Part shown: positions 2,955 through 44,528 of the stretch, piece after piece
Layout: every line of letters starts with the position of its first letter
How positions within the stretch are numbered: position 1 is the first letter of the stretch
DNA from: Bacillota bacterium
Lineage (GTDB): Bacteria; Bacillota; Clostridia; Peptostreptococcales; Anaerovoracaceae
Assembly (NCBI GenBank): GCA_030526355.1
Contig: JAUNDC010000014.1
Location: 1 to 64,000, forward strand
Direction: 5' to 3'
DNA: 64,000 nucleotides
Program-made: the position numbers and the translations under genes
Notes under the pieces: model-generated
The model's database searches: none
What the model was told of the DNA's origin: nothing
Seen by the model: the letters and a program-made list of their open reading frames with translations, nothing else

Positions 2955-3044
2955 AGCAAAGTATTTCATGTGGCGGCTTTTGCACGGGGAATTATCAGCC
3001 CCTTGCGAGAGCCGTCTTTTGCATGGAAAGGAGGAATTAATTTC

Positions 3045-5570
3045 ATGACAAAGGACAAAGTAACAGCAAACGGCAGAAGGAAGGCCGTCGCGATTCTGAT
3101 GCTTGTCGCCATGATGTTTTCGGTGTTTGGCGCGGCACTTCCCGAGAGAGCTTTTGCGGCAGACGGAACCATCACGCTTAAGGTGGGAAGAGTGATAGAT
3201 TATTCATCTCACTTCACCCATTACTTCTACGCAGGTGATAAGGACAATCCGGTGTTCTGTGCGCAGCCTCAGCTTTCGGCACCTTCTGCAGGAACCTATT
3301 CGTACAACTTCATCGAATTCGATTCGATGCTTGCCAAGTGTCTGTACTACGGTCTCGGCGGCCCGGGCTTTGAAGAATACACGGACAAGAAGCTGAGCGG
3401 TCAGTGGGATGGTGAGGATGATGCGTATGCACTGACTCACATTATCATCTCGATTGCCTATGACAAGACAACAAGTGCAGAGTCAGATCCGTTTAAGGGA
3501 CTCAGTGATTCGTGGAAGAACAAGGCAAAAAGCCTTTATGAATATATCAAGACTCTTCCGGATCCCCCTGCCAACTACAGAGCGTTTCGAATCAGAAACG
3601 ATGGCAAGCAGGATATCCTTGGCTCCTTTAATGATGTCGGAACAATTAAGCTTAAGAAAGCATCCTCAAACAACGAGATATCAGGGGGCTCGGAAAGCTA
3701 CTCGCTTCAGGGTGCAAAATACGGAGTGTACTGCAAAGGCAAGCTCTGCTACACCATGACAACCGATGCTAACGGAAGCTGCACACTTGACAATGCACTG
3801 GTATCCGACTATGTGATTAAGGAAATGGATGCATCAAAGGGCTTTGCGGTTGATGCTGAGAGCCATAACTGCACGGTAAAGAATGAACAGATTACAAATG
3901 TCAGCGTATCTGAGGTGCCAAAGAACAATCCTGTAAGCCTCATGCTTCAGAAGGGTGATTCCGAGACAGGAAAGGCAGAGCCTCAGGGAGGAGGAAAGCT
4001 TTCCGGTGCTGTATACGAGATTAAGTATTACAAGCACAAGGATGGAGGTAAGAACTTAGACAGAACCTGGAGAGTCATTACCGATTCAGAGGGAAAGGCA
4101 GAGCTTTCGGATGCTTACCTTGACAAGGACTTTGATAATTCAGCTTTCTATACGGACAGCAAGGGCAGCATATGCCTTCCGCTTGGAACAGTAACCATTC
4201 AGGAGGTTAAGGCACCTGAAGGCTACCTTCTTAACAGCAAAATCTGTACAGCTGAAATCAAAGAGGGAAGTGAAACAGTAGAGACTGTAAACACCTTTAA
4301 TGCTCCTGTAATCGGAACAAACGATGAAGTTGCAGAGCAGATAAAGCGAGGAGATATCCAGCTTGTAAAGGTAAAGGACGGAACCATGACAAGACTTCCG
4401 GGTGTACAGTTTAAGATAACCTCAAAGACAACAGGCGAGAGTCATATTGTCTGCACAGACGAGAACGGAATGATCGACACATCGTCGGGCTTCAATTCCC
4501 ACAAGGAGGATACTAACGGAGGAACAGCCGAAAGCGGACTCTGGTTTGGCGAGATTGATGCAATAGATGACGAGAAGGGAGCACTCCTCTACGACTACTA
4601 CACTCTTGATGAGATAAGAGGAGAGGGTAACAAGGGTCTTAAGCTTGCAGAAAACGTCGAGTTTAGAATCTACAGAGACAATATGACAGTAAACCTTGGA
4701 ACAGTGACAGATGATGTAATAAGCATCGGTACTACCGCAAAGGACAGCGATACAGGTAATCACATCTCCCTTGCAGATAACAGGGTTACAATCATTGATA
4801 CTGTAAAATACAGAGGCCTCACACCGGGCAAGACATACAGACTTGCGGGAACCCTTATGGACAAATCTACAGGAGAGCCTGTAATGGTAAACGGCAAGGC
4901 TGTAACCTCAGAGAAGGTTTTCACTCCGTCAAAGGGGAAGGGAACAATTGATGTTACCTTCATATTCGATGGAAGCAGCCTTTCCGGAAGTGAGATAGTC
5001 GTATTTGAAAAGGCATATGATGTTAAGACTGATACAGAGGTAGCAGGCCATGAGGACATTGACGATGAAGGCCAGAGCGTTGTAATCCCTAAGATGAGAA
5101 CAAAGGCATCGAATGCTTCGGGCAAAACCAATATCATCAAGGCCGAGAAGGACCAGAAGATAACAGACGAAGTCTCATACGAGAAGCTTCTTGCGGGCAA
5201 AAAGTATACCCTTACCACATGGCTCACAAGGGACGGAAAGAAGATTCGCGGAACCGAGGTTACAAAGGAGTTTACCGCAGCAGATGAAAACGGCACTGTA
5301 AAGGCAGAGCTTACCTTCGATGCTTCCATGTATGGAGGAGATAACATCACTGTATTTGAAGAGCTCAGACTTGACGGAAAGACAGTTGCCGAGCATAAGG
5401 ACAAGGACGATAAGGACCAGATGATAAAGGTAACAGCACCTAAGGCTGATGTACCTAAGACAGGCGACAGCTCTCACATGCTGCTTTGGATTATCCTTGC
5501 GGCATCAATGACTGTTATCGGATCGGGCATCCTTGTAAACGAATATGTACAGAAGAGAAAGAAGAAATAG
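3045..5570 (+). CDS. VaFE-repeat / Cna-B surface adhesin with sortase signal
   Basis: An 841-residue cell-wall-anchored protein. It has a signal peptide (basic start, hydrophobic core about 14-30, cut near residue 38), an N-terminal thioester-like domain with FCAQP at Cys72 (the usual partner Gln is not obvious; a His sits in ALTHIII), several SpaA/Cna-B-type beta domains (residues about 290-560), and two VaFE-type repeats containing IVVFEKAYD and TVFEELRL. It ends with the sortase motif VPKTGD, a hydrophobic helix and RKKK. I chose ATG 3045 because of AAAGGAGGAATTAATTTC. Such proteins form isopeptide-stiffened stalks for attachment; in an ICE it may aid mating contact. No sortase is encoded here, so a host sortase is needed. 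Confidence 0.88.
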   Translation: MTKDKVTANGRRKAVAILMLVAMMFSVFGAALPERAFAADGTITLKVGRVIDYSSHFTHYFYAGDKDNPVFCAQPQLSAPSAGTYSYNFIEFDSMLAKCLYYGLGGPGFEEYTDKKLSGQWDGEDDAYALTHIIISIAYDKTTSAESDPFKGLSDSWKNKAKSLYEYIKTLPDPPANYRAFRIRNDGKQDILGSFNDVGTIKLKKASSNNEISGGSESYSLQGAKYGVYCKGKLCYTMTTDANGSCTLDNALVSDYVIKEMDASKGFAVDAESHNCTVKNEQITNVSVSEVPKNNPVSLMLQKGDSETGKAEPQGGGKLSGAVYEIKYYKHKDGGKNLDRTWRVITDSEGKAELSDAYLDKDFDNSAFYTDSKGSICLPLGTVTIQEVKAPEGYLLNSKICTAEIKEGSETVETVNTFNAPVIGTNDEVAEQIKRGDIQLVKVKDGTMTRLPGVQFKITSKTTGESHIVCTDENGMIDTSSGFNSHKEDTNGGTAESGLWFGEIDAIDDEKGALLYDYYTLDEIRGEGNKGLKLAENVEFRIYRDNMTVNLGTVTDDVISIGTTAKDSDTGNHISLADNRVTIIDTVKYRGLTPGKTYRLAGTLMDKSTGEPVMVNGKAVTSEKVFTPSKGKGTIDVTFIFDGSSLSGSEIVVFEKAYDVKTDTEVAGHEDIDDEGQSVVIPKMRTKASNASGKTNIIKAEKDQKITDEVSYEKLLAGKKYTLTTWLTRDGKKIRGTEVTKEFTAADENGTVKAELTFDASMYGGDNITVFEELRLDGKTVAEHKDKDDKDQMIKVTAPKADVPKTGDSSHMLLWIILAASMTVIGSGILVNEYVQKRKKK

Positions 5571-12974: not shown

Positions 12975-13313
12975 ATGAAAAGAAGTATTAAGAAACAGAT
13001 CTGGCTGAGCAGAGACGAAGCAGAAATGCTGAAGAAGAAAGCCAAGAAGGCGTGCCTATCAGAGGCGGGACTGATGCGCTTCCTTCTCAAAGGGTATGAG
13101 CCAAAGGAGAAACCGGACGAGGAATTCTATTGTGAGATGAACAGGATGACGGAGCTGGCGGAAGCCATTGAAAGATTGTCCAGAAGAGCTGACCGTGATG
13201 ATGAAATCCAGATGGATCTTTTCAGAGAAGAGATTGACAGATGGCATCGCTTTCAGGCAGATATTGAAGCCAGGTTCCTCACGCCAGACGAGGCGGAGCT
13301 GAAATGGCGGTAA
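12975..13313 (+). CDS. mobC: MobC-family relaxosome accessory protein
   Basis: A 112-residue protein starting at ATG 12975 (TACGGAGGTAAAG). The N-terminal IKKQIWLSRDEAEMLKKKAK is a ribbon-helix-helix start typical of MobC; GLMRFLLKGYEP continues it. The C-terminal half is a charged helix. MobC proteins bind oriT and help open the DNA for the relaxase. It overlaps the relaxase gene by ten bases. Confidence 0.85.
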   Translation: MKRSIKKQIWLSRDEAEMLKKKAKKACLSEAGLMRFLLKGYEPKEKPDEEFYCEMNRMTELAEAIERLSRRADRDDEIQMDLFREEIDRWHRFQADIEARFLTPDEAELKWR

Positions 13314-14653
13314 CCAAGCTGTGGCCCATAAGAGGTCGTGTCGATTCGCCGCTTAATTATGCAGCCAATGAAGAGAAGACTGCCAACCCAAGATGGGACA
13401 AAAGCAGTCTTCAGAATCTTACTGATGTTATGCACTATGCGGCAGATGAAGACAAGACAGAGAAGCAGTTCTTCGTGTCGGGTGTCAATTGCAATCCTGC
13501 CATTGCCCGTGACCAGTTCGTAAACGTAAAGAAACAGTTCGACAAGGAGGATGGCATAGTTGCTTATCACGGATATCAGAGCTTTGCTGAGGGCGAGGTC
13601 ACACCCGAGCAGGCTCATGAGATTGGAATCGAGCTTGCCAGACGATTCTGGGGTGACGGATATCAGGTGATTGTCGCGACACATCTCAACACGGCACATC
13701 TTCATAATCATTTCATAGTGAACTCGATTTCCTTCAAGGACGGCAAGCGATGCAGGGCAAAACGCTGGTACGACTTCAACAAGGTGTCCGATGATATCTG
13801 CAGGGAACACGGGCTCAGCGTAATAGAGAATCCCAGGGGCAAAGGTGTGCCGGCCTGTGTCTATAATGCGGAAAAGGCAGGTGCGCCGACAAGACTTAAT
13901 CTTGCAAAGGCTGCAGTTGACGAAGCAATCGAAGCTTCACAGAATCTGCAGGAATTCAGGATGGCGCTAAAGGCGATGGGATACAGCTGCAATCTGGACC
14001 CGTCGAGGAAGTACTGGACGATTAAGCAGAAGGACTGGCAGCGGCCTATCAGGATGTACCGGATGGGAGCTGCTTATTCAAACGAGAGTATCATCTCAAG
14101 GCTTGAGAGAGAACCGGAAAGCAAAATGTTCAGTTCCTTTCAGAGAATTATCGTTGTGAGGAAGAGGCAATATGGACTACAGATAAGAGGCGACAGAATT
14201 AAGAAGATAGGAGGGCTCAAGGGTCTGTATCTCCATTATTGCTATCTTCTGGGCTATCTGCCTAAGTATACAAAGAGACCTGCCAAGGTGTCTCCTCTGC
14301 TTCGGGACGACCTCATCAAGATGGACAGGATAGCAGAGGAAACTCGGATGCTTTGCAGAGAGAATATCACAACGATTGATGAATTACGGGTGCGAATTTC
14401 AAGATGCAGCGAGGCTATTGAACAGAAATCGTCTGAGCGTGGCGAGCTATATACGAGATCAAGACGCAAAATCCCGGAGGACGAAAGGCAGAGCCTCCGA
14501 AAGCAGGCATCTGCAATCAGCAGTGAATTGAAAGACCTGAGGAAAGAACTGAGAATGCTTGAAAGCATAGAGAATAGGTCAGCAGTTATTGAAGAGAAGA
14601 TTAAAGAAGTTGAAAAAGAAAGAGAGGTGAAGAAGGATGAACGCAGGCGGTGA
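13304..14653 (+). CDS. MOBP-type relaxase (VirD2-like)
   Basis: A 449-residue transfer-initiating relaxase. The metal-binding histidine cluster THLNTAHLHNHFIVNS (His127, His132, His134, His136) is present, and a candidate catalytic Tyr lies in LNYAAN (Tyr19). The N-terminal relaxase domain covers about residues 1-200; the C-terminal part contains a long coiled coil (about 345-449). It would nick oriT and stay on the transferred strand. It overlaps mobC upstream and the PcfB-like gene downstream, as in Tn1549-like elements. Confidence 0.93.
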   Translation: MAVTKLWPIRGRVDSPLNYAANEEKTANPRWDKSSLQNLTDVMHYAADEDKTEKQFFVSGVNCNPAIARDQFVNVKKQFDKEDGIVAYHGYQSFAEGEVTPEQAHEIGIELARRFWGDGYQVIVATHLNTAHLHNHFIVNSISFKDGKRCRAKRWYDFNKVSDDICREHGLSVIENPRGKGVPACVYNAEKAGAPTRLNLAKAAVDEAIEASQNLQEFRMALKAMGYSCNLDPSRKYWTIKQKDWQRPIRMYRMGAAYSNESIISRLEREPESKMFSSFQRIIVVRKRQYGLQIRGDRIKKIGGLKGLYLHYCYLLGYLPKYTKRPAKVSPLLRDDLIKMDRIAEETRMLCRENITTIDELRVRISRCSEAIEQKSSERGELYTRSRRKIPEDERQSLRKQASAISSELKDLRKELRMLESIENRSAVIEEKIKEVEKEREVKKDERRR

Positions 14654-15285: not shown

Positions 15286-15480
15286 ATGATAGGTGAAGAT
15301 AAATATGTTCTAACAGTAGACGAGGCAACGCAGGGCCTCATCATTAATGCTCTTCTCGAGCTCAGGGAATCGAAGCTTAAGGAGGGCATGGACGTAGGGT
15401 GGATTGGCGAAGTTATAATTGATGTCTGCAATGCTCCGAAGCGCAAAAGCAGAATTGCAGGTGAACGCCATGAAAGATAA
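15286..15480 (+). CDS. Small conserved ICE protein, paralogue-like
   Basis: A 64-residue protein after AAAGGAGAGATAGG. It begins with KYVLTVDEATQGLIINALLE, which parallels KFVLTLDSDRYDLIIYSLIE in the small gene at 330: the K-aromatic-V-L-T-x-D start, the L-I-I core and a following L/M-E are shared. Position between pcfB and virD4 is common for such small proteins in Tn1549-like elements. No function is known to me. It overlaps the start of virD4 by 11 bases. Confidence 0.68.
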   Translation: MIGEDKYVLTVDEATQGLIINALLELRESKLKEGMDVGWIGEVIIDVCNAPKRKSRIAGERHER

Positions 15481-15962
15481 GGACGTGATAATTTATGGAG
15501 CTTTTGGACTTGTGCCGGTCATATGGCTGGCACTTCTTGTGGCTCCCTGCATGGATGATGGACTTGTATCGGCGATGGAACTTATTCCCGAAGCCTTTGC
15601 AAGTCCTTTTGCCATTAAGCTGTGCAGCGATAGTCTGAAGTGGGTTGTGATTGCGATTGCCGCATATGGAATGGGCATCGGAATCTATTTCAGTACCAGA
15701 AGAAATTATCGCCGTGGAGAAGAGATGGGCTCAGCGAAGTGGGGCGATTCAGCAAAGCTAAACAAAAGGTATGCCGCTAAGGCTCCCGAGGAAAGCAAGC
15801 TCCTGACTCAGAATGTAAGGATTGGACTTGACGGAAGGGCGCACAGAAGAAACCTGAACGTGCTCGTATGCGGAGGCTCGGGCTCGGGCAAAACAAGGTT
15901 CTATGTGAAGCCGAATCTCATGCAGGCAAACACATCTTTTGTTTGCCTTGATCCGAAGGGCG
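15470..15962 (+). CDS. virD4: VirD4/TraG coupling protein, 5' exon
   Basis: This exon encodes residues 1-164 plus the first base of codon 165 of a coupling protein. Two membrane helices (about 8-26 and 56-73) are followed by the Walker A box GGSGSGKT (135-142) and FVCLDPKG. Reading then runs into a group II intron and stops at 16012 if not spliced. Joining base 15962 to 18634 gives LDPKG-E-N-C-R-A-V-G-T-L-L-K, the expected VirD4 sequence, and a 611-residue product. The start at ATG 15470 overlaps the preceding gene and has only a weak ribosome site (GCAGGTGAACGCC), so it is probably coupled. Confidence 0.88.
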
Positions 15963-16739
15963 GTGCGATACGTTCGTGCATGAAAAGTGCACGCGCACAA
16001 TTAAATAATTAACGTTTAATGTGTAGAACTGAATACACGATAAGTCAAATGATAAGGTAACGCTTTGAAGGGCTACCCTAATACTCCGATTGGCGCAGAT
16101 TTGAGCAAACAATGACGCGTCAAAAGCTCGGTGAAGTCGGCAGAGAGGTATCGAAACATTGAGTTGTCGAAAACTGCTTAGAGGTAAGTGGCATACCCTA
16201 TATGCCGGGGGTCTATAAAATATCTATGGTTAGAATGTGGAAACTGACAAGTTCACTGACGAAATTTCGAATGTACGGGTCTATATCGGGACTCGGTAGA
16301 AATGCCGAGTAGCACAATAGGTGCTGTTGCTTGTGGTTGAGTAAGACTCCGCCTTTATGAAAGACCATTCATTATTACAGGTAATGACAAAGTAACAGGC
16401 TCATAGAAATGACCTAAGGATATATGCAACAGATAGTGTATTTGGAACGTAGTAAGCTAACAACGTGGAGAATTTGCTTTCGATGAAGCGTCACTGGCGA
16501 AAATGAAATGCTCATATAAGTCAGTCTTATGTTAGTGAAAGTGGTGGCACAGTACCAGTGAAGTTATGGAAACATAATGGAGGGATAGCCACTAGTCAAA
16601 TTAAGGAATCAGTTAGTAAGTAGTATGGGTTCGAGTAAGACTAAGAGATGTATTACTCTAGCCATTAGGAAGGAGGATACAGACCATACAAGAGAAAGCA
16701 AAGAAGAAAAACAAACTAAGAAACAATGAATATTATGAT

Positions 16740-18512
16740 ATGCAGAAAGTCTTTGATGAATTGTATGCAAGCAGTAAGAACGGCAACAATTTCTATAAAC
16801 TCTATGAACTAATCATCTCAAAAGAGAATATACTGCTGGCTTATCGCAATATCAAAACCAACAACGGCAGCCATACAGCTGGTGTGGACGGGAAGACAAT
16901 TGACGATATAAGCAGACTCACAGATGATGAAGTAATAAATAGAGTGAGAAACAAGCTGATGGACTACAAGCCACAGGCGGTCAGGAGAGTATATATTCCA
17001 AAACGTGGTAGCGACAAGAAGCGACCATTAAGAATACCGATCATATGGGACAGGCTCATTCAGCAATGTATTTTACAAGTGCTAGAGCCAATATGTGAAC
17101 CGAAATTTCATAATCACTCATATGGATTCAGAGCCAACCGCTCTTGCGAACACGCCATATCCAGAGCTATTACACTGGCAAACCTAGCGAATCACCATTA
17201 CTGCGTTGATGTGGACATCAAAGGTTTCTTTGATAATGTAAACCACGGAAAACTGCTGAAACAGATGTGGACGTTGGGAATAAGAGATAAGAGAGTGATA
17301 TCAATTATCTCCAAGTTGTTGAAGGCTGAAATTGCAGGAGAGGGTATTCCGTCCAAAGGAACACCACAAGGTGGACTCATCAGCCCATTACTATCGCTGA
17401 TAGTACTCAATGAATTGGATTGGTGGGTTAGCAGTCAATGGGAAACCTTTAAGCCAGAAAGATTTGACCCTAAAAATCGCTCGGGCTGGTTCTCATATGC
17501 CAGGAAATATACAAGGCTAAAAGATGGGTTTATCGTGCGATATGCTGACGACTTCAAAATTATGTGTCGGACATATGCAGAAGCCAAGAGATACTACTAT
17601 GCAACAATAGATTATCTCAAATGTCGTTTGGGTCTTGAGATAAGTGAAGAAAAATCAAAGGTAGTAAACCTTAAGAAAAATTCTTCAAACTTTCTAGGTT
17701 TCAAAATGAAATCAGTAAAGAAAGGTAAAACGAAGTATGGCTATGTTGTTAAAACTGATATGAGCAACAAAGCAATCGAAGCATCAAAGCAGACTCTTAA
17801 ACATTGTATCTTAGATATCAAGAAGGATATTCCAGATAAGGGTATAAACAAATTCAATGCCACGGTGATGGGAATCCAAAACTATTACTGTATTGCAACC
17901 AATATTTACAACAATTTAACTGAAATAAGTTATGCAATCTTACCTTCGTTAAAAATCCTAACCAAAGGATATGGAAAGAAGATAGAATTCCGTAATACTC
18001 CAAGCGAGTTCAAGGATAAAACTTATGGAATAAGACCTGATACTAAAATATTCTGCATTGGGAACAAACCCTTGCTCCCAGTTACAGGTGTAAAAAGGTT
18101 CAACCCGATGAATTTCTCCCAGACAGTCTGTGACTTTACAGAAGAAGGACGGAAGAAAGTTCACGAAAACCTCAAGCACCTGCATAGCCGTGATTTTGAA
18201 ATGCTGTACAGAGTGAGAGATAGTCAGAAAACCATCGATTTTAATGACAACCTCATTTCCGCATATGCAATGCAAGATGGTCTATGCTATTTCACACATA
18301 AGAGATTAAACCTTGATAACAGTATAGCAATTTACAAAAATCCAAAAGCTATTGAACTGAATGCACACACAAATATTTGTATCATCGATAAATCATTCCA
18401 TAAAACACTATCTTTTACCAAGGAAAAATTAACAGAATGGATTGCAGAGCATCAGTTAAATACTAAAACACAGCTAAGTTTATGGCGAATATACAATCTA
18501 TACAACTCTTAA
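16740..18512 (+). CDS. ltrA: Group II intron reverse transcriptase/maturase
   Basis: A 590-residue intron-encoded protein. RT blocks run from AGVDGKTIDD through RVYIPKRG, LRIPIIWDRLIQQ, SYGFRANRSCEHA, GTPQGGLISPLLS to the catalytic RYADDF (Y268-A-D-D). A maturase X domain follows (about 330-440). The C-terminal region keeps CYFTHKRL, the start of an HNH-type endonuclease domain, but the His-His core and second Cys pair are missing, so DNA cleavage activity is doubtful. No ribosome site precedes ATG 16740; AGGAGG at 16671 sits nine bases before an in-frame ATA at 16686, which would add 18 basic residues (begins IQEKAKKKNKLRNNEYYD). Confidence 0.92.
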   Translation: MQKVFDELYASSKNGNNFYKLYELIISKENILLAYRNIKTNNGSHTAGVDGKTIDDISRLTDDEVINRVRNKLMDYKPQAVRRVYIPKRGSDKKRPLRIPIIWDRLIQQCILQVLEPICEPKFHNHSYGFRANRSCEHAISRAITLANLANHHYCVDVDIKGFFDNVNHGKLLKQMWTLGIRDKRVISIISKLLKAEIAGEGIPSKGTPQGGLISPLLSLIVLNELDWWVSSQWETFKPERFDPKNRSGWFSYARKYTRLKDGFIVRYADDFKIMCRTYAEAKRYYYATIDYLKCRLGLEISEEKSKVVNLKKNSSNFLGFKMKSVKKGKTKYGYVVKTDMSNKAIEASKQTLKHCILDIKKDIPDKGINKFNATVMGIQNYYCIATNIYNNLTEISYAILPSLKILTKGYGKKIEFRNTPSEFKDKTYGIRPDTKIFCIGNKPLLPVTGVKRFNPMNFSQTVCDFTEEGRKKVHENLKHLHSRDFEMLYRVRDSQKTIDFNDNLISAYAMQDGLCYFTHKRLNLDNSIAIYKNPKAIELNAHTNICIIDKSFHKTLSFTKEKLTEWIAEHQLNTKTQLSLWRIYNLYNS

Positions 18513-18549
18513 AATACTAACTTAACAAACTGATTTACTAATTTGATGG

Positions 18550-18633
18550 AACGCCGTATGAAGCGAAAGTTTCACGTACGGTGTGAAGTGGGGGAAAAGG
18601 TGGAGATAACATCAAAGCCTTACCTATCACTAT
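18550..18633 (+). ncRNA. Group II intron domains V and VI
   Basis: Domain V: ACGCCGTA (18551-18558) pairs with TACGGTGT (18577-18584) around GAAGCGAAAGTTTCACG, giving the conserved hairpin with its CGAAAG tip. Domain VI: AGTGG and GGG pair with the 3' strand ending CTATCACTAT, leaving A18626 bulged seven bases from the intron end, the expected branch point. Confidence 0.85.
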
Positions 18634-19976
18634 AGAACTGCAGAGCAGTGGGAACGCTTCTCAAAGCAAAGGGATATGAGGTCAGAGTGCTCGACCTTAT
18701 CAATATGGACAGAAGTCACTGTTATAATCCGTTCGTATATCTTAAGGATGATAACGACATTCAGAGACTCGCCACCAATCTTTTTAAAAGCACAACTCCG
18801 AAGGGCTCATCGAGCACGGATCCATTTTGGGATGCCGCCGCTCAAATGCTATTTCTTGCGCTGGTGTTCTATCTTAAGTATGAAGCTCCGGAAGAGGAGC
18901 AAAACTTCTCCATGGTAATGGAGATGATAAGAGCGGGCGAGATTCAGGATGAGGACGGAGGAGACTACAGCCCGCTGGACAGACTGTTCAATAATCTTAA
19001 TCAGAAGAAGCCGAACCATATTGCGTACAAGTATTACAAGGCCTATCACTCAGGCTCGGCAAAGACGCTTAAGTCAATACAGATTACGCTTGTATCAAGA
19101 CTTGAGAAGTTCAATCTTGAGTCGCTGGCTTCTCTGACAATGACTGATGAACTTGAGCTGGACAAAATGGGCGAACGGAAGACCGCTCTTTTTGCCATAA
19201 TCCCGGATAATGACACTTCCTTTAACTTCCTGGTGTCCATCCTTTACACTCAGCTTTTCCAGCAGCTGTTCTATGTTGCGGACCACAAACACGGCGGAAG
19301 ACTGCCGGTGCATGTCCACTTTGCAATGGATGAGTTCGCAAATCTGTCCTTGCCTGAGGATTTTGACAAGATTCTGGCGGTGATGAGATCACGAGAGGTA
19401 TCGGTATCGATTATCCTGCAGAACATGGCGCAGCTCAAAGCACTATTCGAGAAGCAATGGGAGAGCATTGTCGGCAACTGCGATGAATTTCTCTACCTTG
19501 GCGGGAACGAACAGAGCACGCATAAGTATGTGTCAGAACTCCTCGGCAAAGAGACAATTGACATGAACAATTACAACAGGTCCTACGGACATAACGGCAG
19601 CTACTCAACAAGTTATCAGATGAATGGGCGAGAGCTTCTTGATGCATCAGAGGTCAGGATGCTCGACAATGCGAATGCAATTCTTTTCATCAGGGGCGAG
19701 AAGGCAGTTAAGGATTTGAAGTACGACATCATGAAGCATCCGAATATCGCACTTACAGAGGACGGCGGTGCGGAGCCTTTCATTCACGGAACAACACCTG
19801 AGGCTGTAGCTGATATCGTGGTAGAGGAATGGTTTGAAGAGTCCGAAGAGAAAGCAGAAGTGCAGGCTGAAACGGGATATGAGCTTCTGTCTGATACGGA
19901 TCTTCTAAAGGAAATAGAGAAGGAGGAAAACGAGAATGAACAAGGAAATACAGACACCGGAAATGGTGAAGCTTAA
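18634..19976 (+). CDS. virD4: VirD4/TraG coupling protein, 3' exon
   Basis: This exon completes the coupling protein (residues 165-611). It has KGYEVRVLDLINM, NPFVYL, DPFWDAAAQMLF, the motor motifs TALFAIIPDNDTSFNFLVS and FAMDEFANLSLPEDFDK (Walker B, DEF), and SIILQNMAQLKALFEKQWE with NCDEFLYLGGNE, all standard for VirD4/TraG. The C-terminus (about 560-611) is acidic and disordered. Coupling proteins are hexameric ATPases that feed the relaxase-DNA complex into the mating channel. A GTG at 18648 could start this part alone but the product would lack Walker A. The 3' end overlaps the next gene by 41 bases. Confidence 0.93.
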
Positions 19977-26428: not shown

Positions 26429-28768
26429 TTGATAAAGACACTAAAGAATATTGATAAGCAGGAGCACCAGAGATATAAGGTGCCGAAAACGGTGCAGGAC
26501 CTCATTCCTGTGCAGACAGTATATGACGATGGGATATTTCAGGTGATGCCGAACATGTTCAGCAAAACATTCAGGTTCGAGGATATCAACTATGCTGTTG
26601 CATCGGGAGAGGACAAGGCATCAATGTTTCTGAAGTACAGTGAGATTCTTAACTCCCTTGACAGTGGAGCGACTACGAAGATTACAATCAATAATCGCCG
26701 TATGGACAAGAGGGAGATAGCGAGAGATATCCTGATTCCGTCAAGAAAAGACAGGCTTGACCTTTACAGAAAGGAATATAACAAAATTCTTCTTGAGAAG
26801 GCTACAGGCACGACGGCCATGGTTCAGGATAAGTATCTTACCATCTCGGTATATAAGCAGAGCATAGAAGATGCGAGATCGTATTTTGCCAGAGTAGGTG
26901 CAGAGCTGGGGCAGCACTTCTCGAGGCTTGGCTCAAGACTTATTGAGATAAGCGGTGAGGAGAGACTTAAGATGCTGTTTAACTTCTATCGTATTGGCGA
27001 GGAGTCTTCATTTAACTTCGATATCAGCCAGTGGGCAAGGCGCGGTCACAGCTTCAAAGACTATATCTCACCTGACAGCATTGAAGTGTTTGATGACTAC
27101 TTCAAGCTTGGCGAGAAATACGGAAGAGTGATGTTCCTGAAGGATTATGCCAACTATATCAAGGACGACATCATAACAGAGCTTACTGATATTTCACGCA
27201 ACCTGATGCTGAGCATAGATGTTGTTCCCATTCCTACCGATGAGGCGGTAAGGCAGGTCGAGAATCTTATGCTTGGTGTTGAGACGAATGCCGCCAACTG
27301 GCAGCGCCGCCAGAACGCCAACAATAATTTCTCTGCCATGCTTCCGTATGACCTGGAGCTTCAGAGAAAGGAAACAAAGGAGTTCCTGGAGGATCTGACC
27401 ACGAGAGACCAGAGGATGATGTTCGCTGTCCTCACGCTTGTTCACATGGCAGATACCAAGAAGCAGCTTGACGATGATACTGAAGCCATTATGACTGCAG
27501 CAAGAAAGAAGCTCTGCCAGCTTTCAATCCTTAAGTGGCAGCAGATGGACGGTCTCAATACTGCACTTCCTATCGGAGTGAGAAAGATAAAGGTGATGAG
27601 AACGCTGACTACAGAGAGCCTTGCTGTGCTGATGCCCTTCAGAGTGCAGGAGATAGCACACAAGCACGGTATTTATTACGGACAGAATGCGATATCCAAG
27701 AATATGATTGTCGCAGACAGACGGCAGCTTATGAACGGCAACTCATTCATTCTCGGTGTATCGGGCTCGGGCAAGTCTTTTGCGGGCAAAAATGAAATCG
27801 TCAATCTGATGCTTTCTGCGGATGTTGATATTATTCTTGTAGATCCGGAGCGAGAATACTCGGCTCTTGTGAGAGCAATGGGCGGAGAAGTCATTCATAT
27901 TTCGGCAACATCTCCTAACCATATCAATGCAATGGATCTTAACCGTGAATACGGCGACGGAGCAAACCCTGTAATTCTGAAATCTGAATTCGTGCTGTCA
28001 CTGTGCGAGCAGCTGATAGGAAACGGCAGCCTCGGAGCCAAACAGAAGTCCATTATTGACAGATGCACGGCGAGGGTCTACTGGAACTATCAGGAGAATG
28101 GATATACGGGGCTTCCGCCGACACTTCAGGACTTCCATGCCGAGCTTATGATGCAGCCGGAACCTGAAGCCAAAGAGCTTGCACTTGCCATCGAGCTTTT
28201 CACTAAGGGCTCCCTTAACACCTTTGCAAAGCATACAAATGTTGATAACAACAACAGGCTCATATGCTTCGATATCCTTGACCTTGGCAAGCAGCTTATG
28301 CCGATCGGAATGCTTGTGGTTCTCGACAGTATCCTTAACAGAATCACCAGAAACAGAGCGCAGGGAAGACAGACCTTCATATTCATTGATGAGATCTACG
28401 TTCTCTTTCAACATGAGTATTCGGCAAACTTCCTTTTCACGCTCTGGAAAAGAGTTCGTAAGTACGGAGCATTCTGCACAGGTCTTACCCAGAACGTGGA
28501 GGATCTGCTTCAGTCGCATACAGCCAGAGCAATGCTGGCTAACTCGGAGTTCCTGATTATGCTCAACCAGGCACCAACCGATAAGCACGAGCTGGCCAAG
28601 CTCATCAATATTTCAAATGAGCAGATGAACTATATCACAGATGTGAATCCGGGCTGCGGACTCATTAAGGTCGGCAGCTCGCTTGTGCCGTTTGAGAACA
28701 AATTCCCGAGAAACACCAGCCTGTACAAGCTTATGACCAGTAAGCCGGGAGAGGCAATCTACGGATAA
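26429..28768 (+). CDS. virB4: VirB4-family conjugation ATPase
   Basis: A 779-residue ATPase powering the mating channel. Walker A is GVSGSGKS (443-450) and Walker B is in TFIFIDEIYVLFQ; RVRKYGAFCTGLTQNVEDLL and the final FENKFPRNTSLYKLMTSKP are typical of this family. The N-terminal half is the VirB4/TraE-type membrane-interacting domain. It starts at TTG 26429 after AAGGAGGCGATAGTA, two bases beyond prgI. Confidence 0.94.
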   Translation: MIKTLKNIDKQEHQRYKVPKTVQDLIPVQTVYDDGIFQVMPNMFSKTFRFEDINYAVASGEDKASMFLKYSEILNSLDSGATTKITINNRRMDKREIARDILIPSRKDRLDLYRKEYNKILLEKATGTTAMVQDKYLTISVYKQSIEDARSYFARVGAELGQHFSRLGSRLIEISGEERLKMLFNFYRIGEESSFNFDISQWARRGHSFKDYISPDSIEVFDDYFKLGEKYGRVMFLKDYANYIKDDIITELTDISRNLMLSIDVVPIPTDEAVRQVENLMLGVETNAANWQRRQNANNNFSAMLPYDLELQRKETKEFLEDLTTRDQRMMFAVLTLVHMADTKKQLDDDTEAIMTAARKKLCQLSILKWQQMDGLNTALPIGVRKIKVMRTLTTESLAVLMPFRVQEIAHKHGIYYGQNAISKNMIVADRRQLMNGNSFILGVSGSGKSFAGKNEIVNLMLSADVDIILVDPEREYSALVRAMGGEVIHISATSPNHINAMDLNREYGDGANPVILKSEFVLSLCEQLIGNGSLGAKQKSIIDRCTARVYWNYQENGYTGLPPTLQDFHAELMMQPEPEAKELALAIELFTKGSLNTFAKHTNVDNNNRLICFDILDLGKQLMPIGMLVVLDSILNRITRNRAQGRQTFIFIDEIYVLFQHEYSANFLFTLWKRVRKYGAFCTGLTQNVEDLLQSHTARAMLANSEFLIMLNQAPTDKHELAKLINISNEQMNYITDVNPGCGLIKVGSSLVPFENKFPRNTSLYKLMTSKPGEAIYG

Positions 28769-30604: not shown

Positions 30605-31585
30605 ATGGTAAATAATTATACGAAGAAAAGATTGCTTTTAATTTTGGAACTTTTATATAAAACGACAGATGAGGAAAATCCAATAAGTACTGTAGGAATC
30701 ATGAAATATCTTGAGAAGAAAGGCCTTTCTATTGACCGAAAGACTTTGGCCAGTGACATTAAGACCCTTACAGAAATGGACTATGATATCGTGACTATAA
30801 AGAGTTCACCTAACAAATACTTCTGGGGTAACAGAACTTTTGAAATTCCAGAATTAAAGATGCTGATAGATGCGGTTTCTTCCGCAAGGTTTATTACCAA
30901 GAAAAAAAGCAAAGAACTTATTGAGAAGATAGCTACTTTAGCTGGTGATGCACAGTATGAAAACATGAATAGACATATTGTTGCAACAGGTAGGGCAAAG
31001 TCTGATAACAAGAAACTTTATTACATAGTGGATACGATATCAGAAGCTATCAATAAAAAGAAGAAAATACAGTTCAAATATACAGAATATAATGCTGATA
31101 AAGAAAAAGTCTTTAGACATGACGGTGAAGTGTACACAGTGAGTCCGTATGTTCTTTACTGGAATGAGGATTATTACTATGTTGTTGGATACTATGATAA
31201 ACGAGAAATGGTGGCAGCGTTCCGGGTGGATAGATTACATACCCCAAAAGTAATTGATGAACAGGCAGTGCCGAAACCTAAAGATTTTAATATAGATGAT
31301 TATGCCAATAAGATTTTTAAGATGTTCGATGGCGAAGAGGCAATTGTGGAGCTTGAATGTGAAAATCATTTGATGAAATATATCATAGACCATTATGGCG
31401 GGAACATCGAAACAAATAGAAATAGTCAGAATACATTTATTGCAAAAGTCCCTGCAACATTAACACCGACATTTTATGCATGGGTGTTCCAGTTCAGCGG
31501 AGGCATAAGAATTATCAGCCCACCGAAAGCAATAGAATGTTTTAATAAAATGTTAGAAGCAAATAAAGGGGATTTTAATGAATAG
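30605..31585 (+). CDS. brxR: WYL-domain regulator (BrxR-like)
   Basis: A 326-residue regulator. An N-terminal winged helix (about 5-75) includes KGLSIDRKTLASDIKTLTEM. A central WYL-type domain (about 125-225) has IQFKYTEYN and SPYVLYWNEDYYYVVGYYD followed by AAFRVDRLH, the WYL signature region, and a C-terminal beta-alpha domain. BrxR proteins repress BREX operons and may sense foreign nucleic acid. ATG 30605 leads the operon and overlaps brxA by eight bases. Confidence 0.85.
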   Translation: MVNNYTKKRLLLILELLYKTTDEENPISTVGIMKYLEKKGLSIDRKTLASDIKTLTEMDYDIVTIKSSPNKYFWGNRTFEIPELKMLIDAVSSARFITKKKSKELIEKIATLAGDAQYENMNRHIVATGRAKSDNKKLYYIVDTISEAINKKKKIQFKYTEYNADKEKVFRHDGEVYTVSPYVLYWNEDYYYVVGYYDKREMVAAFRVDRLHTPKVIDEQAVPKPKDFNIDDYANKIFKMFDGEEAIVELECENHLMKYIIDHYGGNIETNRNSQNTFIAKVPATLTPTFYAWVFQFSGGIRIISPPKAIECFNKMLEANKGDFNE

Positions 31586-32180
31586 TTTAAAATACAGTTC
31601 CGGATTGATGTCCCATTCATTCTGGTTTCATGAATTTAGAACAGTAGTGAAACTAAGAGAAAAGGGCATGGATTACGAGCAAATAAAGAAAAAATGCATA
31701 GAAGAAAACCTTGTTGGAGCAGTAAAGGAGTATAGAGCATTAAGAATAACAAACTATATTATCGCTAGAGTAAAGAACATGGATGATAGACTTGTTGAAC
31801 TATTTTGTGAGTCTGATATGCCTACACAGAAATTAATTAATCTAATTACTGTTATAAGGACCGATAGACTGTTCTTTGAATTTCTATATGAAGTGTATAG
31901 AGAAAAATCTATTATTGGTACAGGCGTTCTGGAGAAAGAAGATGTAAATGTTTTCTTCACTAGGAAGGAATCGCAAAGTGAAGACATAGCGAAGTGGAAA
32001 GACACCACTAAAAAGAGATTAGGTTCTTTGTATCTTAATTTTATGGTAGATGCAAATCTGCTTACAGTGATAGACAAGAAAAGAGCAATAACACCACCAA
32101 TACTGGATGTTGAACTAGAAAGATATTTGCTGGCAAATGGTGAAGATGCAATAGTTAAAGCTTTGACTGGAGAGAATTAG
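31578..32180 (+). CDS. brxA: BREX protein BrxA (DUF1819)
   Basis: A 200-residue protein with the DUF1819 layout: YSSGLMSHSFWFHEFRTVVK at the start, LITVIRTDRLFFEFLYEVYR in the middle, VNVFFTRKESQSEDIAKW and a C-terminal winged-helix-like segment. BrxA binds DNA in characterised type 1 BREX systems, where it is needed for defence. Its start overlaps brxR and brxB follows two bases after the stop. Confidence 0.9.
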   Translation: MNSLKYSSGLMSHSFWFHEFRTVVKLREKGMDYEQIKKKCIEENLVGAVKEYRALRITNYIIARVKNMDDRLVELFCESDMPTQKLINLITVIRTDRLFFEFLYEVYREKSIIGTGVLEKEDVNVFFTRKESQSEDIAKWKDTTKKRLGSLYLNFMVDANLLTVIDKKRAITPPILDVELERYLLANGEDAIVKALTGEN

Positions 32181-32182
32181 AT

Positions 32183-32761
32183 ATGCTTACTTTAGATGAA
32201 AAATTAAATAGAGCCGAGGCTATGATACAAAAGCCGGCGTTTCGTAAGAATAAAGGCTTAGGAAATGAAGTCGGGTATTACATTTTCGACTATCCGGCAG
32301 AGCAGGAACTATATGTTAGGGAAAGGATTGAATACATAAGAAAGAAAAATGAGAATTCTTCTGATGATTATAAAATCGTTGTATTTGACCTGTATGAAAT
32401 TGTAATTGATATTTTAAAGCAAAAGGGATATCTGGAAAAATGCTATGAGTTTGAAAAGAAAAAAGGTTTCGAGAGAATAACAAAATCAGTAGGAAATATG
32501 CTTCGAATAACATCATCAGATAGTCTTATTGTGAAGCATATTAAAGAAAACACGCCAGAGAAAGCGGTCGTGTTTATTGTGGGCATAGGAAAATGTTACC
32601 CAATACTGCGTTCTCATACAGTACTGAATAATTTACATCAGGTAATCGATCATGTACCTGTCGTGATGTTTTATCCAGGCAAGTACGATGGCCAAGAATT
32701 AATATTATTCGGAGAAATTAAAGATGATAACTACTACCGTGCATTTAAGCTAGTGGAGTAA
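32183..32761 (+). CDS. brxB: BREX protein BrxB (DUF1788)
   Basis: A 192-residue protein of the DUF1788 family. FDYPAEQELYVRERIEYIRK, IVVFDLYEIVIDILKQKGY, VVFIVGIGKCYPILRSHTVL and VVMFYPGKYDGQELILFGEI are the conserved blocks. BrxB is an essential small component of type 1 BREX. It lies in the canonical position between brxA and brxC. Confidence 0.92.
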   Translation: MLTLDEKLNRAEAMIQKPAFRKNKGLGNEVGYYIFDYPAEQELYVRERIEYIRKKNENSSDDYKIVVFDLYEIVIDILKQKGYLEKCYEFEKKKGFERITKSVGNMLRITSSDSLIVKHIKENTPEKAVVFIVGIGKCYPILRSHTVLNNLHQVIDHVPVVMFYPGKYDGQELILFGEIKDDNYYRAFKLVE

Positions 32762-32773
32762 GGAGAGCAAGTG

Positions 32774-35700
32774 ATGATGAATATAGCACAGATGTTTGCA
32801 AAACCAATAGATCGTGATTTAAAAGGCGTTATTAAAGTTGGGCAGGATGACGACCTGAATATTAAACAAGAGCTTGAGGAATATGTTGTGACACGTGAAC
32901 TGCAGAGACATTTCCGTGATTTCTTTGACAGCTATAAGCGTGGCATTACTGGAAATACAGATAAAATGGGCGTTTGGATTTCCGGTTTCTTTGGAAGCGG
33001 TAAATCTCATTTTCTGAAGATATTATCTTATCTTTTGGAAAACAAGGAAATTGATGGAAAGACAGCCTTAGAATATTTCGAAGAAGATGACAAGATTAAA
33101 GATCCGACAGTTCTTGCAGATATGCGTTTAGCAGCATCAACAAGTGCTGATGTTATATTATTCAATATTGATTCTAAAGGTGAGCAGAACGGAAAATCTG
33201 ATGAAAAGGCGATACTTTCCGTATTCTTAAAAGTATTCAATGAAATGCAGGGCTTCTGTGGTGCAATTCCATTTCTTGCTGATTTAGAACGTAAACTGTC
33301 AGAAGACGGTAGATATGAAGAGTTTAAGAATGCATTTGAAGAATCGTTTGGCTCCAAGTGGGTTGAAGCTAGAAATGACTTTGACTTTATCCAGGATGAT
33401 ATCGTTGAAGTGCTTTCTGATATAGGTTACATGAGTGAAGAGGCTGCTCGTAACTGGTGTGAACGTTCCACTATGGAGTATAAATTGAGCATTGAAGACT
33501 TTGCCAAGATGGTAAAGAAATATATCGATGCAAAAGACAACAACCATCATGTGGTTTTCTTAGTAGACGAAATTGGACAGTACATTGGCGAAGATGGAAA
33601 GCTAATGTTAAATTTGCAGACTGTTACTGAAGACTTAGGGACAGCATGTCAGGGAAAAGCATGGATAGTTGTAACAAGTCAGCAGGACATTGACTCTATT
33701 GTAAAAACTAAAGGAAATGACTTCTCTAAAATTCAAGGAAGATTTGATACTAGATTATCTTTATCCTCCGCAAACGTTGATGAAGTAATTCGGGAGAGAA
33801 TCTTAAAGAAGACAGAAACTGCAAATCAGACTCTTAATTTATATTACGAAGACAAAGCAACAATAATCAAAAACTTGATTTTATTTAATGATGGTATAGA
33901 GAAGAAACTGTATTCTGATGCGAATAATTTTGCACAGGTTTATCCGTTTATCCCGTACCAGTTTAATATCTTGGGAAATGTTCTGACTTCTATTCGTGAA
34001 CACGGAGCTTCCGGAAAACATTTGGCAGAAGGGGAACGTTCCATGTTGGCAATGTTCAAAGAGTCAGCAATGACTGTGATGAACCAGACGACAGGAACCG
34101 TTGTACCATTCCATATGTTTTACGATGCATTAGAACAGTTCTTGGATCATTCTCACAAAGGCGTGATTTCACGTGCGTTGGAAAATGATTATTTGAATCC
34201 AAACCATGAAGATAGCTGCTTCGACGTTAATGTATTAAAAACTCTCTTCATGATTAAGTATGTAAAGGAAATTAAGGCTAACCTTGAGAATATAGCGACA
34301 CTGATGGTATCCCACGTTGATGAGGACAGAATGGAGCTGGTTCAGAAGGTAGACGACGCATTAAAGCGTCTTATCAGACAGACATTAGTTCAGAAAAACG
34401 GTGATATCTACATATTCTTGACTAATGAAGAACAAGAAATCAATCGTGCAATCGAGGCACAGTCCATAGATATGGGTGAAGTAACGGCAAAGGTATCAGA
34501 AATGATCTTTGACGGTATTTTTGATGAGAAAAAATATCGTTACCCAGCGATGAATGGAAGATATGCTTTTGGATTCAATCAGGTAGTTGATGATAAGCCA
34601 TACAAAAACAATCAGAACTTTGAGATCACATTAAAGATATTAACTCCTAATAGTGATGAAATTGCAGATGATATGACTATGAGAATGCTGTCATCTCAAG
34701 GTAATTATGTATTAGTTGTATTGCCTGATGATAGAACTTTCCTGGATGAAATACGTGCTTCTAAACAGATTGAAAAGTTTATTAAATTTGATTCATTGAA
34801 TTCTGTTACAAAGTATGAACAGATTAAAGAAGCAAAAAGAATTGAACTTCGTGAACGTTCTGCTGCAGCGAAGTTATTCCTTCAAGAAGCTTTGAAAAAC
34901 GCAACGATTTATGTGAATGGTGATATAGTTCAGACATCTTCAAAGGATGTAAATGCACGTATCAATGAAGCTTTGGGCAAACAGGTATCGTCTGTATATC
35001 ACAAGTTAACTTACATTGATACGGCAACTAATGAAGCGGATATTCGCAAGTTATTTAAAGATGATGGACAGCAAATAACTATTGATGGAACAAAGACAAC
35101 TCCAAACATTTTGGCTATCAATGATATCAGAGATTACATAACAATTAATACAGAAAGACATATGAAGACTTCAATGAAGACATTATTGGACCGCTTTACA
35201 AAAGCACCATACGGATTCATAGAAGCCGATGTTCAGTGGGTTGTAGCAAAGCTGTTTAAAGATGGAGATATTTCTTTATATATAAATAGTGATGCTGTAA
35301 CAACATTAAATAAGAGCGTTGATGAAATCGTCAAGCTGATTACTCGAAAAGAGTTCAATGAACGCTTAATGACAGAGAAACGTGAACGTGCAACGGAAAA
35401 ACAGAAAAAGGCCGTAAAGGCAGTCATGAAAGAATTGTTCAATTCTGCATATCCGACAGACGATGATGATGCAGTAATGGGAGAATTTTTAAGATGTGCA
35501 GGTAATCTGAAAAATGATCTTGAAAAATTAGAAATTCATTATAGTAATCAGCCTAAATACCCGGGAAAAGCTATCATCAATGAAGGAAAAACGGTATTAA
35601 ATGATGTTCTTCAGATAAAGAATGCTAACGAATTCTTTGCCAATGTAGATCGTCATATGGATGATTATCTTGATTTTGCAGAAGATTACGAGCCAGTAAA

Positions 35701-36385
35701 GAAATTCTTTACTGGTGAGCAACTTAATATTTTTAATGAAGCTATTCGTCAGATGAAGATATTTGATGAAAGTAAAAACTTTATTGTTGATAAGCAGGTT
35801 GAAACAGCTGCACATACTATAAAAGAAATTTTAGATAAGAAAGTTCCATTTAATGATATCTATAAATTACCTAAGTTAATCGAAGATTTCAGATTGGCAT
35901 ATGTTGATTTAATGGTTGGAATGGAACCACCAATTGCAGATGCAATCGAAGATGCAAAAACTAGAGTCTTTGATGAATTAGAGGGAAAAGCATGTAAGGA
36001 TGCATTAAAACCTAAGTACATCAAGGCCTTTGCTGATATAAAAGAAAAACTTGATACATGTAACAATGTTGCAACTTTACAGAACATCAAAGTTGAAGCT
36101 GATGCGATGAAGGTTCGTTACTTGAATGAAATATCAGTCGAGGAAGCGAAATTTATATATGTGCCTGATCCAGTTAGTCCTGAAGGTCAGAGTGACGTTG
36201 ATATTCCACCTGCACCACCGGTACCACAACCAAAGAAACATAAAATTATCAGTATAAAATCAGTGAATTCAGAGTCAACTTGGCAGATTAAAAACGAAGA
36301 AGATATTAAACGCTATCTTGATGAACTCAAAACTAAATTGATGGCTACACTTGAAGAAGACACGATTATCAATATCGAGTTCTAA
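32774..36385 (+). CDS. brxC: BREX ATPase BrxC (PglY-like)
   Basis: A 1203-residue P-loop ATPase. Walker A is GFFGSGKS (71-78), Walker B is in HVVFLVDEIGQYIG, and VVTSQQDIDSIV is a sensor-like segment. The long C-terminal part is helical and includes coiled coils. Length fits BrxC. It is the motor/scaffold of BREX. The start is ATG 32774 or 32777 with AGGAGAG upstream. Confidence 0.95.
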   Translation: MMNIAQMFAKPIDRDLKGVIKVGQDDDLNIKQELEEYVVTRELQRHFRDFFDSYKRGITGNTDKMGVWISGFFGSGKSHFLKILSYLLENKEIDGKTALEYFEEDDKIKDPTVLADMRLAASTSADVILFNIDSKGEQNGKSDEKAILSVFLKVFNEMQGFCGAIPFLADLERKLSEDGRYEEFKNAFEESFGSKWVEARNDFDFIQDDIVEVLSDIGYMSEEAARNWCERSTMEYKLSIEDFAKMVKKYIDAKDNNHHVVFLVDEIGQYIGEDGKLMLNLQTVTEDLGTACQGKAWIVVTSQQDIDSIVKTKGNDFSKIQGRFDTRLSLSSANVDEVIRERILKKTETANQTLNLYYEDKATIIKNLILFNDGIEKKLYSDANNFAQVYPFIPYQFNILGNVLTSIREHGASGKHLAEGERSMLAMFKESAMTVMNQTTGTVVPFHMFYDALEQFLDHSHKGVISRALENDYLNPNHEDSCFDVNVLKTLFMIKYVKEIKANLENIATLMVSHVDEDRMELVQKVDDALKRLIRQTLVQKNGDIYIFLTNEEQEINRAIEAQSIDMGEVTAKVSEMIFDGIFDEKKYRYPAMNGRYAFGFNQVVDDKPYKNNQNFEITLKILTPNSDEIADDMTMRMLSSQGNYVLVVLPDDRTFLDEIRASKQIEKFIKFDSLNSVTKYEQIKEAKRIELRERSAAAKLFLQEALKNATIYVNGDIVQTSSKDVNARINEALGKQVSSVYHKLTYIDTATNEADIRKLFKDDGQQITIDGTKTTPNILAINDIRDYITINTERHMKTSMKTLLDRFTKAPYGFIEADVQWVVAKLFKDGDISLYINSDAVTTLNKSVDEIVKLITRKEFNERLMTEKRERATEKQKKAVKAVMKELFNSAYPTDDDDAVMGEFLRCAGNLKNDLEKLEIHYSNQPKYPGKAIINEGKTVLNDVLQIKNANEFFANVDRHMDDYLDFAEDYEPVKKFFTGEQLNIFNEAIRQMKIFDESKNFIVDKQVETAAHTIKEILDKKVPFNDIYKLPKLIEDFRLAYVDLMVGMEPPIADAIEDAKTRVFDELEGKACKDALKPKYIKAFADIKEKLDTCNNVATLQNIKVEADAMKVRYLNEISVEEAKFIYVPDPVSPEGQSDVDIPPAPPVPQPKKHKIISIKSVNSESTWQIKNEEDIKRYLDELKTKLMATLEEDTIINIEF

Positions 36386-36397
36386 GGAGGAATGACT

Positions 36398-37507
36398 TTG
36401 AACGACAACCCAAAGGTTTTTATATCATACAGCCACCAAGACGCTGTTTATGAAAATAAAGTATTAGAGTTTACCAACAAGCTACGCTCAGAGGGTATCG
36501 ACGCAAATGTTGACTTATATGAAGAAGCGCCCTCTGAGGGGTGGCCTCGTTGGATGGAAAACCAAATTAGAGAATCGGATTATGTTTTAGTACTGTGCAG
36601 CAAATCATATTATGATAAGTTTTATTCTGACACTAAAGGAAAAGGTGTTACTTGGGAAGTAAGCATTATATACCAGTGTTTATATGACACTAATGCGGAG
36701 ACCAAGAAGTTTATTCCTGCTTTCTTTGAAGCGGGAGAAGAACAATATATTCCTACTCCAATAAAGTCTTTTACATACTATAATGTCGGTACATCAGAGG
36801 GTTACAATAAACTTTACTGGAGGTTAAGAGGAGTAAATAAAACAGAAAAACCGCCACTTGGGAAATTAAGACCATTGCCGGAAAAACAACGAAAGACAAT
36901 GTTCTTTTCAACACCTATTGACTATGATAAGTGGAATGCTGCTCAGTGGCGAGGAATGTTGTACCTCTTTTTCCCCAATAATGAATATCCTCCGATTTTA
37001 GGGTTTTTATTTCACAATTATGAAGCAGGTAAAGCAATATTTGAGGAATGGAAGAAAACTGCTAACGGAGGTTATGCAGACGATTTCCTAAAAATTGACT
37101 TTATTGAACCTCCTTTCTCAAAAGACTGTTGGGTCAATAAAGAAAAAGACAGGAATTACGGTAATGGATATTTCGTTCATTTGGGGGCAAATATTGACGC
37201 ATCGGCTAAACGTGGAATAGAAAGCGGCATTACTCAAGACGAAATGTTACTTGCTACAATAAGCAGATACCAGTGGATGGATGAAAGCAAGAACAGAAAT
37301 ATTTTCAAGCAACTTGTTAAGAACGGCTGCGGCTATGAAATAATGCCGGTAGGCATCAAAAATAAGAGCAAACCAATCTCGCAGGAGAACTTAATTCTTG
37401 ACGATAAACTAACCATCAAAATGAAGGAAGTATGTTTTACACCTGCGATGAGTTTGACCGAGAACGATATTTGCGGTTGTGTACTGAACAATCCATATAT
37501 CGGTTAG
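36398..37507 (+). CDS. SEFIR-domain (TIR-like) protein embedded in BREX
   Basis: About 369 residues. The N-terminal 140 residues form a SEFIR/TIR-like fold: KVFISYSHQDAVYENKVLEF, EGIDANVDLYEEAPSEGWPR, SDYVLVLCSKSYYDKF, GVTWEVSIIYQCLYD and FIPAFFEAG. The C-terminal domain (about 165-369) is not recognised and may sense or execute. Bacterial SEFIR and TIR proteins can act as NAD-depleting abortive-infection effectors (known for some families). I chose TTG 36398 because AAGGAGG ends eight bases upstream; ATG 36392 lies too close to it. It sits between brxC and pglX, which is unusual for type 1 BREX. Confidence 0.8.
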   Translation: MNDNPKVFISYSHQDAVYENKVLEFTNKLRSEGIDANVDLYEEAPSEGWPRWMENQIRESDYVLVLCSKSYYDKFYSDTKGKGVTWEVSIIYQCLYDTNAETKKFIPAFFEAGEEQYIPTPIKSFTYYNVGTSEGYNKLYWRLRGVNKTEKPPLGKLRPLPEKQRKTMFFSTPIDYDKWNAAQWRGMLYLFFPNNEYPPILGFLFHNYEAGKAIFEEWKKTANGGYADDFLKIDFIEPPFSKDCWVNKEKDRNYGNGYFVHLGANIDASAKRGIESGITQDEMLLATISRYQWMDESKNRNIFKQLVKNGCGYEIMPVGIKNKSKPISQENLILDDKLTIKMKEVCFTPAMSLTENDICGCVLNNPYIG

Positions 37508-37517
37508 GAGGTGCAAT

Positions 37518-41162: not shown

Positions 41163-41173
41163 GGTGTATAGTA

Positions 41174-41707: not shown

Positions 41708-41724
41708 TTTGGAGGAAAAGAAAG

Positions 41725-44511: not shown

Positions 44512-44528
44512 GTGAGTTAGGAGAAAAA

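Follow-up and report, generated by a model that had tools for sequence, protein, structure and literature searches.

A group II intron at the Asp-Pro codons of a virD4 gene and its relatives in conjugation motor ATPases

Does a group II intron inside the coupling-protein gene (virD4) of an ICE make conjugation depend on splicing, and why does it lie exactly where it does? A first-pass annotation of the 64-kb stretch of DNA analysed here (the window) had placed such an intron at 15963–18633 on the grounds of frame restoration, IBS1-EBS1 pairing and domain V/VI structure, and each of these held up. The forward-strand intron is 2671 nt long by Rfam, reading frame, EBS/IBS pairing, homologue alignment and DV/DVI fold. 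It begins with GTGCG at 15963 and ends with CTAT at 18633, both consistent with the Rfam matches and with the GUGYG 5′ end and AY 3′ end of group II introns. The catalytic core is represented by part of domain I (16024–16219, + strand; group-II-D1D4-5, RF02004, 166.1 bits) and by domains V and VI (18549–18633, + strand; RF00029, 59.3 bits). Domains V and VI fold with a z of -4.65, equalled in stability by 0 of 200 shuffles, and A18626 is bulged at the position of the domain VI branch A, making it the likely branch point. An intron-encoded protein (IEP) of 590 aa (16740–18512, + strand) matches the group II intron RT/maturase model TIGR04416 at 324.7 bits (cut-off 300) and also PF00078; it carries YADD in its RT and, by our census of HNH residues, has lost those at its C-terminus. 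Two marks of group IIC introns, the lack of EBS2 and insertion after terminator hairpins, are not seen here: EBS2 is present and the site is a coding motif. Class B introns have been described as restricted to Firmicutes (PMC4424553). GC content in windows lying wholly inside the intron is 0.35–0.43, mostly below the 0.45–0.48 of the flanks. The intron is single-copy, with no second copy and no other group II RT elsewhere in the host genome assembly.

Both exons belong to one gene of the NF045973 VirD4-like CD1115 family. Exon 1 (15470–15962, + strand; 493 nt; NF045973 positions 3–61, PF02534, frame) comprises codons 1–164 and the first base of codon 165 and ends directly after DPKG; exon 2 (18634–19976, + strand; 1343 nt; NF045973 positions 65–440, 430.8 bits) runs from the rest of codon 165, split G|AG, to the stop. 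Joined at 15962/18634, they form a single open frame of 611 codons. Four uninterrupted same-genus homologues align across LDPKGE with no gap at the junction, three of them with 64% identity over about 600 aa. Intron removal thus gives back a VirD4 that aligns gap-free to uninterrupted homologues. The unspliced frame passes DPKG shortly into the intron and then stops; introns of this kind make intact conjugation genes resemble pseudogenes in annotation.

The virD4 gene lies in an ICE that also encodes a relaxase (13304–14653, + strand; PF03432), a peptidoglycan hydrolase and an uninterrupted VirB4 of the CD1110 family (26429–28768, + strand; NF045971, 1022 bits), whose DPER motif at 27842 is a site type used by relatives of the intron. 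A tmRNA 3′ end at the window start (1–55) is a likely ICE attachment site. Near one ICE end (2970–5570) lies a gene for a surface protein whose domains are of the thioester, SpaA and T-Q ester-bond types. The ICE also carries a BREX type 1 set (31578–46586; BrxA, BrxB, BrxC, PglX, PglZ and BrxL), with a gene for a SEFIR/TIR-domain protein (36392–37507) between brxC and pglX.

In the host assembly (2.70 Mb, 84 contigs), PF02534 is represented by six fragments; an uninterrupted coupling-protein gene of this family is absent, which is not proof because the assembly is fragmented. Since the unspliced frame stops in the intron and no uninterrupted PF02534 gene is assembled, it is reasonable to infer that conjugation depends on splicing. 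VirD4 function could also be supplied in trans, from other coupling-protein types or after excision of an IME from another virD4 gene. On contig C73 of the same genome, a 10.7-kb IME (locus L066, 1358–12040) interrupts virD4 at DPKG and brings with it a large serine recombinase, a Mob_Pre (MobV-type) relaxase and an NgoBV-like restriction-modification pair, and on contig C53 a virD4 5′ half adjoins the same IME end (locus L067, about 7929). Serine-integrase IMEs thus occupy, in other virD4 genes of this genome, the same DPKG codons as the window intron.

The position of the intron is probably accounted for by pairing of its RNA with the exon. EBS2 (CGGGUC, 16276–16281, + strand) pairs with IBS2 (GATCCG, 15950–15955, + strand; codons Asp-Pro), and EBS1 (CGCCUUU, 16350–16356, + strand) pairs at 7 of 7 positions with IBS1 (AAGGGCG, 15956–15962, + strand), which covers the Lys and Gly codons and the first base of Glu. 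EBS2 and EBS1 together pair with GATCCGAAGGGCG (15950–15962) at all 13 positions, two of them G-U, and no other 13/13 target site occurs on either strand of the 64-kb window.

To place the window intron among its relatives, 57 loci from an IEP scan of 84,980 species genomes were pooled with those found by searching genomes, viral sequences and plasmids, giving 75 loci with the window's included. In an IEP tree (FastTree, local supports; short or damaged IEPs left out), the introns inserted at Asp-Pro codons group together as a single clade (support 0.917), within which the window intron belongs to a nested clostridial branch (0.999). The clade has 36 members, counting L054 and L116, which were assigned outside the tree by IEP identity (55%) and junction. 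GAYCC stands at -13 in all 30 readable 5′ junctions of the clade, which include two identical-intron pairs (L005/L072 and L006/L086), versus 0 of 17 outside it. Among the six members with unreadable 5′ junctions, the same site is represented by its VirB4 side, from residue 477, in L012, L027 and L054 and by its VirD4 side in L009. In the outgroup introns L077, L078 and L051, the 5′ exon ends apparently lie within or close to KAPEGY/APKGY-like codons, which recall the repeats of SpaA-type surface proteins, and these introns may represent another motif-targeting lineage.

Seven target motifs are found in the clade: DPKG, DPKS, DPKN, DPKK, DPMN, DPER and DPFW. The hosts examined are VirD4 genes of the CD1115/T4SS-DNA_transf type (for example L013, L014, L022, L024, L009 and L004), VirB4 genes of the CD1110 family (L011, L017), TcpF genes (L007, L020, L113) and, by a weak match, an EccC/FtsK-like ATPase gene (L010). 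L026, L012, L054 and L027 flank virB4 at residues 475–477, L026 at DPER. Some genes are interrupted twice: the virD4 genes of L006 and L015 have one intron at DPKx and another at an FW motif near residue 235, the virD4 of L018 has one at DPKG and a second near residue 448, and the virB4 of L011 contains two group II introns. Close to the host, the lineage is rare, as the low counts indicate: DPK codons followed by GTGCGA were found by pattern search in 2 of 393 order-level genomes (the window's and G348), and IEP searches, with the window's own genome counted each time, matched 12 of the 296 genomes of the family (E 1e-60) and 2 of the 391 of the class (E 1e-165). Plasmid, phage and viral-contig homes for the window intron were each considered and rejected. 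The best plasmid match has 59.7% aa identity; of 55 phage records with a match, 5 span 80% or more of the query, and these 5 reach an identity of at most about 45%; and viral contigs yielded two loci, at 56% and 42%.

Among the relatives, EBS1 covaries with IBS1. Introns pair with their own IBS1 at 6.17 of 7 positions on average versus 4.53 when partners are shuffled (n=35; 0 of 20000 shuffles reach the observed value), and, when each EBS string is counted once (n=16), at 6.06 versus 3.86 (again 0 of 20000); 14 junctions that could not be scored are omitted from these pairing statistics. A DPMN target, ATGAATG, is matched by an EBS1 of CGTTCAT, for example, and a DPKN target, AAGAACG, by CGTTTTT. 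Covariation of EBS2 with IBS2 was not convincing (651 of 20000 shuffles reach the observed pairing) and is not demonstrable because EBS2 is nearly invariant. L014 and L113 pair poorly with their own hosts (9 of 13), and the first intron of L015 has no recognisable EBS1.

G-U pairs were then located relative to the codons in 26 non-redundant clade members, L072 and L086 having been dropped because they duplicate the introns of L005 and L006 (100% identity). They occupy 36 of 104 third-codon cells versus 2 of 234 other cells. The EBS base opposite GAY is G in 26/26 members, though T is the commoner exon base (19/26), and AAR is faced by U in 22/22. Mismatches occur at -2 (third base of the codon for the fourth motif residue) in 11 of 26 members and at -8 in 20 of 26, so any tolerance of synonymous change is incomplete. 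The excess of G-U pairs at third codon positions is the pattern expected from such tolerance, with a weight limited by shared descent: because EBS2 and much of EBS1 are inherited in common, there have been few independent EBS choices. A search of open-licence PMC articles, which is not proof of absence, found no paper combining these ideas on third-codon wobble.

Several relatives appear to have moved recently. Identity of 99.0–99.4% over about 2680 nt links the introns of L007 (TcpF, Extibacter muris), L113 (TcpF, on an Enterococcus faecium plasmid) and L014 (VirD4, from Clostridium citroniae). The VirD4 exons of L014 have no significant similarity to TcpF (no match with L113, E 0.22 with L007). 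Likewise, the introns of L003 and L004 are 96.6% identical in VirD4 exons that share 31% identity, and those of L005 and L006 are 99.3% identical in exons that share 59.8%. Near-identical introns in such dissimilar exons indicate that copies have recently landed at one and the same motif of different motor genes, and the roughly 99% identity of the L007, L014 and L113 introns indicates recent transfer between Firmicutes classes. The Enterococcus faecium plasmid of L113 also carries erm(B) and aph(3′)-IIIa. The IEP is, by its substitution pattern, under purifying selection: of the seven relative pairs whose dS could be measured, six have a dN/dS of 0.04–0.13 and L005/L006 has 0.30, after six comparisons with saturated dS and exon 1 of L021/L023 (frame) were dropped.

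Movement has evidently continued in spite of a change in the IEP. All 20 window-branch proteins whose C-terminus is complete lack the first and the last HNH histidine, and all 11 other DP clade members with a complete C-terminus have both, whereas YADD is intact in 31/31 (20/20 in the window's branch). The HNH residues of a C-terminal En domain, by which En-plus retrohoming introns are recognised, are therefore missing from the window IEP. In the alignment, HNH loss also affects the FW-site virD4 introns of L006 and L015 and, in part, the second virB4 intron of L011. Clear losses were seen only in introns of conjugation ATPases or, in L010, of an FtsK-like ATPase; introns with an intact HNH also occur in conjugation ATPases, for example L013 and L026. 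Several pairs still show constraint on what was the En region (dN/dS 0.07–0.31); in L005/L006, whose IEPs are near-identical, the C-terminal 90 codons are unconstrained (dN/dS 1.25, few changes). The window's branch has lost its HNH residues, kept the RT motif and evidently kept moving. Because recent jumps are evident despite the En loss, En-independent retrohoming of the RmInt1 kind is probably the likeliest route for this endonuclease-degenerate branch. With its En histidines lost, the window copy may itself be resident and no longer moving.

Taken together, these results very probably describe a splicing-competent, retromobile group II intron from a mainly Firmicutes lineage that has specialised on the DNA of a conserved Asp-Pro-x-x motif in conjugation motor ATPases. 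Excised intron RNA together with the RT would recognise GAYCC via EBS2, while EBS1 would read the next two codons plus one base; the RNA would then reverse-splice at the motif and be copied into DNA. Relatives occupy the same short motif in several motor genes apparently because the guide RNA reads that motif in DNA. The intron anatomy, exact junction, restored frame, EBS1/IBS1 covariation and repeated movement among ATPase genes are supported by the sequences themselves. Splicing in vivo would restore the host mRNA, so that the intron survives and the ICE keeps full-length VirD4; conjugation would then require it. On this reading the window copy would still be mobile, and its branch would probably prime reverse transcription without an endonuclease. 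The fate of the intron is in this way tied to horizontal transfer itself, and the lineage offers a natural system for studying RNA-guided motif targeting and endonuclease-free mobility.

The same pairing suggests a possible further effect, which we put forward tentatively: the intron may act mainly as a brake, with the spliced-out RNP re-targeting virD4 mRNA through EBS/IBS and lowering both VirD4 and transfer. Ll.LtrB is reported to lower relaxase mRNA and conjugation 3–4 fold via EBS-IBS pairing (PMC6003770), and the window intron pairs perfectly, 13/13, with its junction; the strength of such an effect may vary among introns, however, and it would be an effect of the same element rather than an alternative origin. 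A bolder extension of the motif-reading interpretation is doubtful. It holds that the lineage reads a protein motif at the DNA level with conjugation as its homing substrate, that wobble-capable EBS bases opposite third codon positions resist synonymous escape, and that small EBS1 changes re-aim it to other DNA-transfer ATPases. The clostridial branch would have given up its endonuclease because ssDNA entering conjugatively, via the very motors that it inhabits, supplies both target and primer.

A protective role as the reason why the intron persists is improbable: the split DPKG codons would no longer offer a target to serine-integrase IMEs, which cannot be spliced out of virD4, and the ICE would be spared. 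The virD4 genes on C73 and C53 do carry the same IME at the same codons, and of the 30 related integrase loci from the host family that were examined, 8 lie directly beside virD4 at DPKG/DPNG codons, but a few virD4 loci of one genome are an anecdote and relatives of the intron also occupy virB4 and tcpF. Least probable of all is a splicing-dead relic that has inactivated virD4 and leaves the ICE to transfer only with a coupling protein from another element: the En residues are lost and other VirD4-type loci are present in the genome, but the ribozyme core scores far above the Rfam cut-offs, the branch A, YADD and EBS/IBS are intact, and the exons are fully open and align to intact homologues.

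The motif-reading lineage can be compared with several known systems. The parallel with Ll.LtrB drawn by the first-pass annotation stands insofar as both are RT introns in a conjugation gene, and falls short in intron type (RF02004 here), in the gene occupied and in the degenerate endonuclease of the window copy. Ll.LtrB is of a different intron type from the window intron and has an intact En. As described in PMC6003770, it likewise encodes an RT and lies within a conjugation gene, ltrB of pRS01, whose transfer is expected to need splicing; its host is a relaxase gene, not a coupling-protein gene, and the effect on the host has been measured.

RmInt1 is a Sinorhizobium intron with an unrelated target. 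Its IEP is reported to be naturally without endonuclease activity and the intron to be still mobile (PMC5010178), and it resembles the window branch in this respect, with the activity missing there and the HNH residues lost here.

The first-pass annotation had further implied that virD4 was a new kind of target, which published precedents contradict; it had not noted the motif specificity of the lineage, the loss of endonuclease residues or the IMEs at the same codons. As reported in 2005, B.th.I2 of pAW63, like the window intron, is a group II intron interrupting the VirD4 homologue of a conjugative element, but it is ORF-less, about 935 bp long and on a Bacillus plasmid (PMC1196294). Introns of S. 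suis ICEs are likewise site-specific at conserved protein motifs, namely DEFAN in the coupling-protein gene and DPEXE in virB4, and their authors state that splicing is required for full-length VirB4 and CP, so that a dependence of conjugation on splicing has already been argued for those ICEs (PMC12479173, 2025). In the description given there, each motif goes with one intron family and DPKG of VirD4 is not among the motifs named, whereas the present clade spans seven DP motifs and four ATPase families, with EBS1 covariation. Tn6104 and IME_Sco1050_traG are also mobile elements within traG/virD4, of Tn5252-type ICEs, but are serine-integrase IMEs, not introns (PMC5704250). According to an earlier study, group II introns differ from inteins and group I introns in that they do not favour conserved protein sites (PMC2814812); the present lineage is a counter-case, one clade at one motif in at least three conjugation-ATPase families and one FtsK/EccC-like family. 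As a kind of finding, a virD4 intron has precedents; a motif-reading, re-aimed and endonuclease-degenerate lineage goes further.
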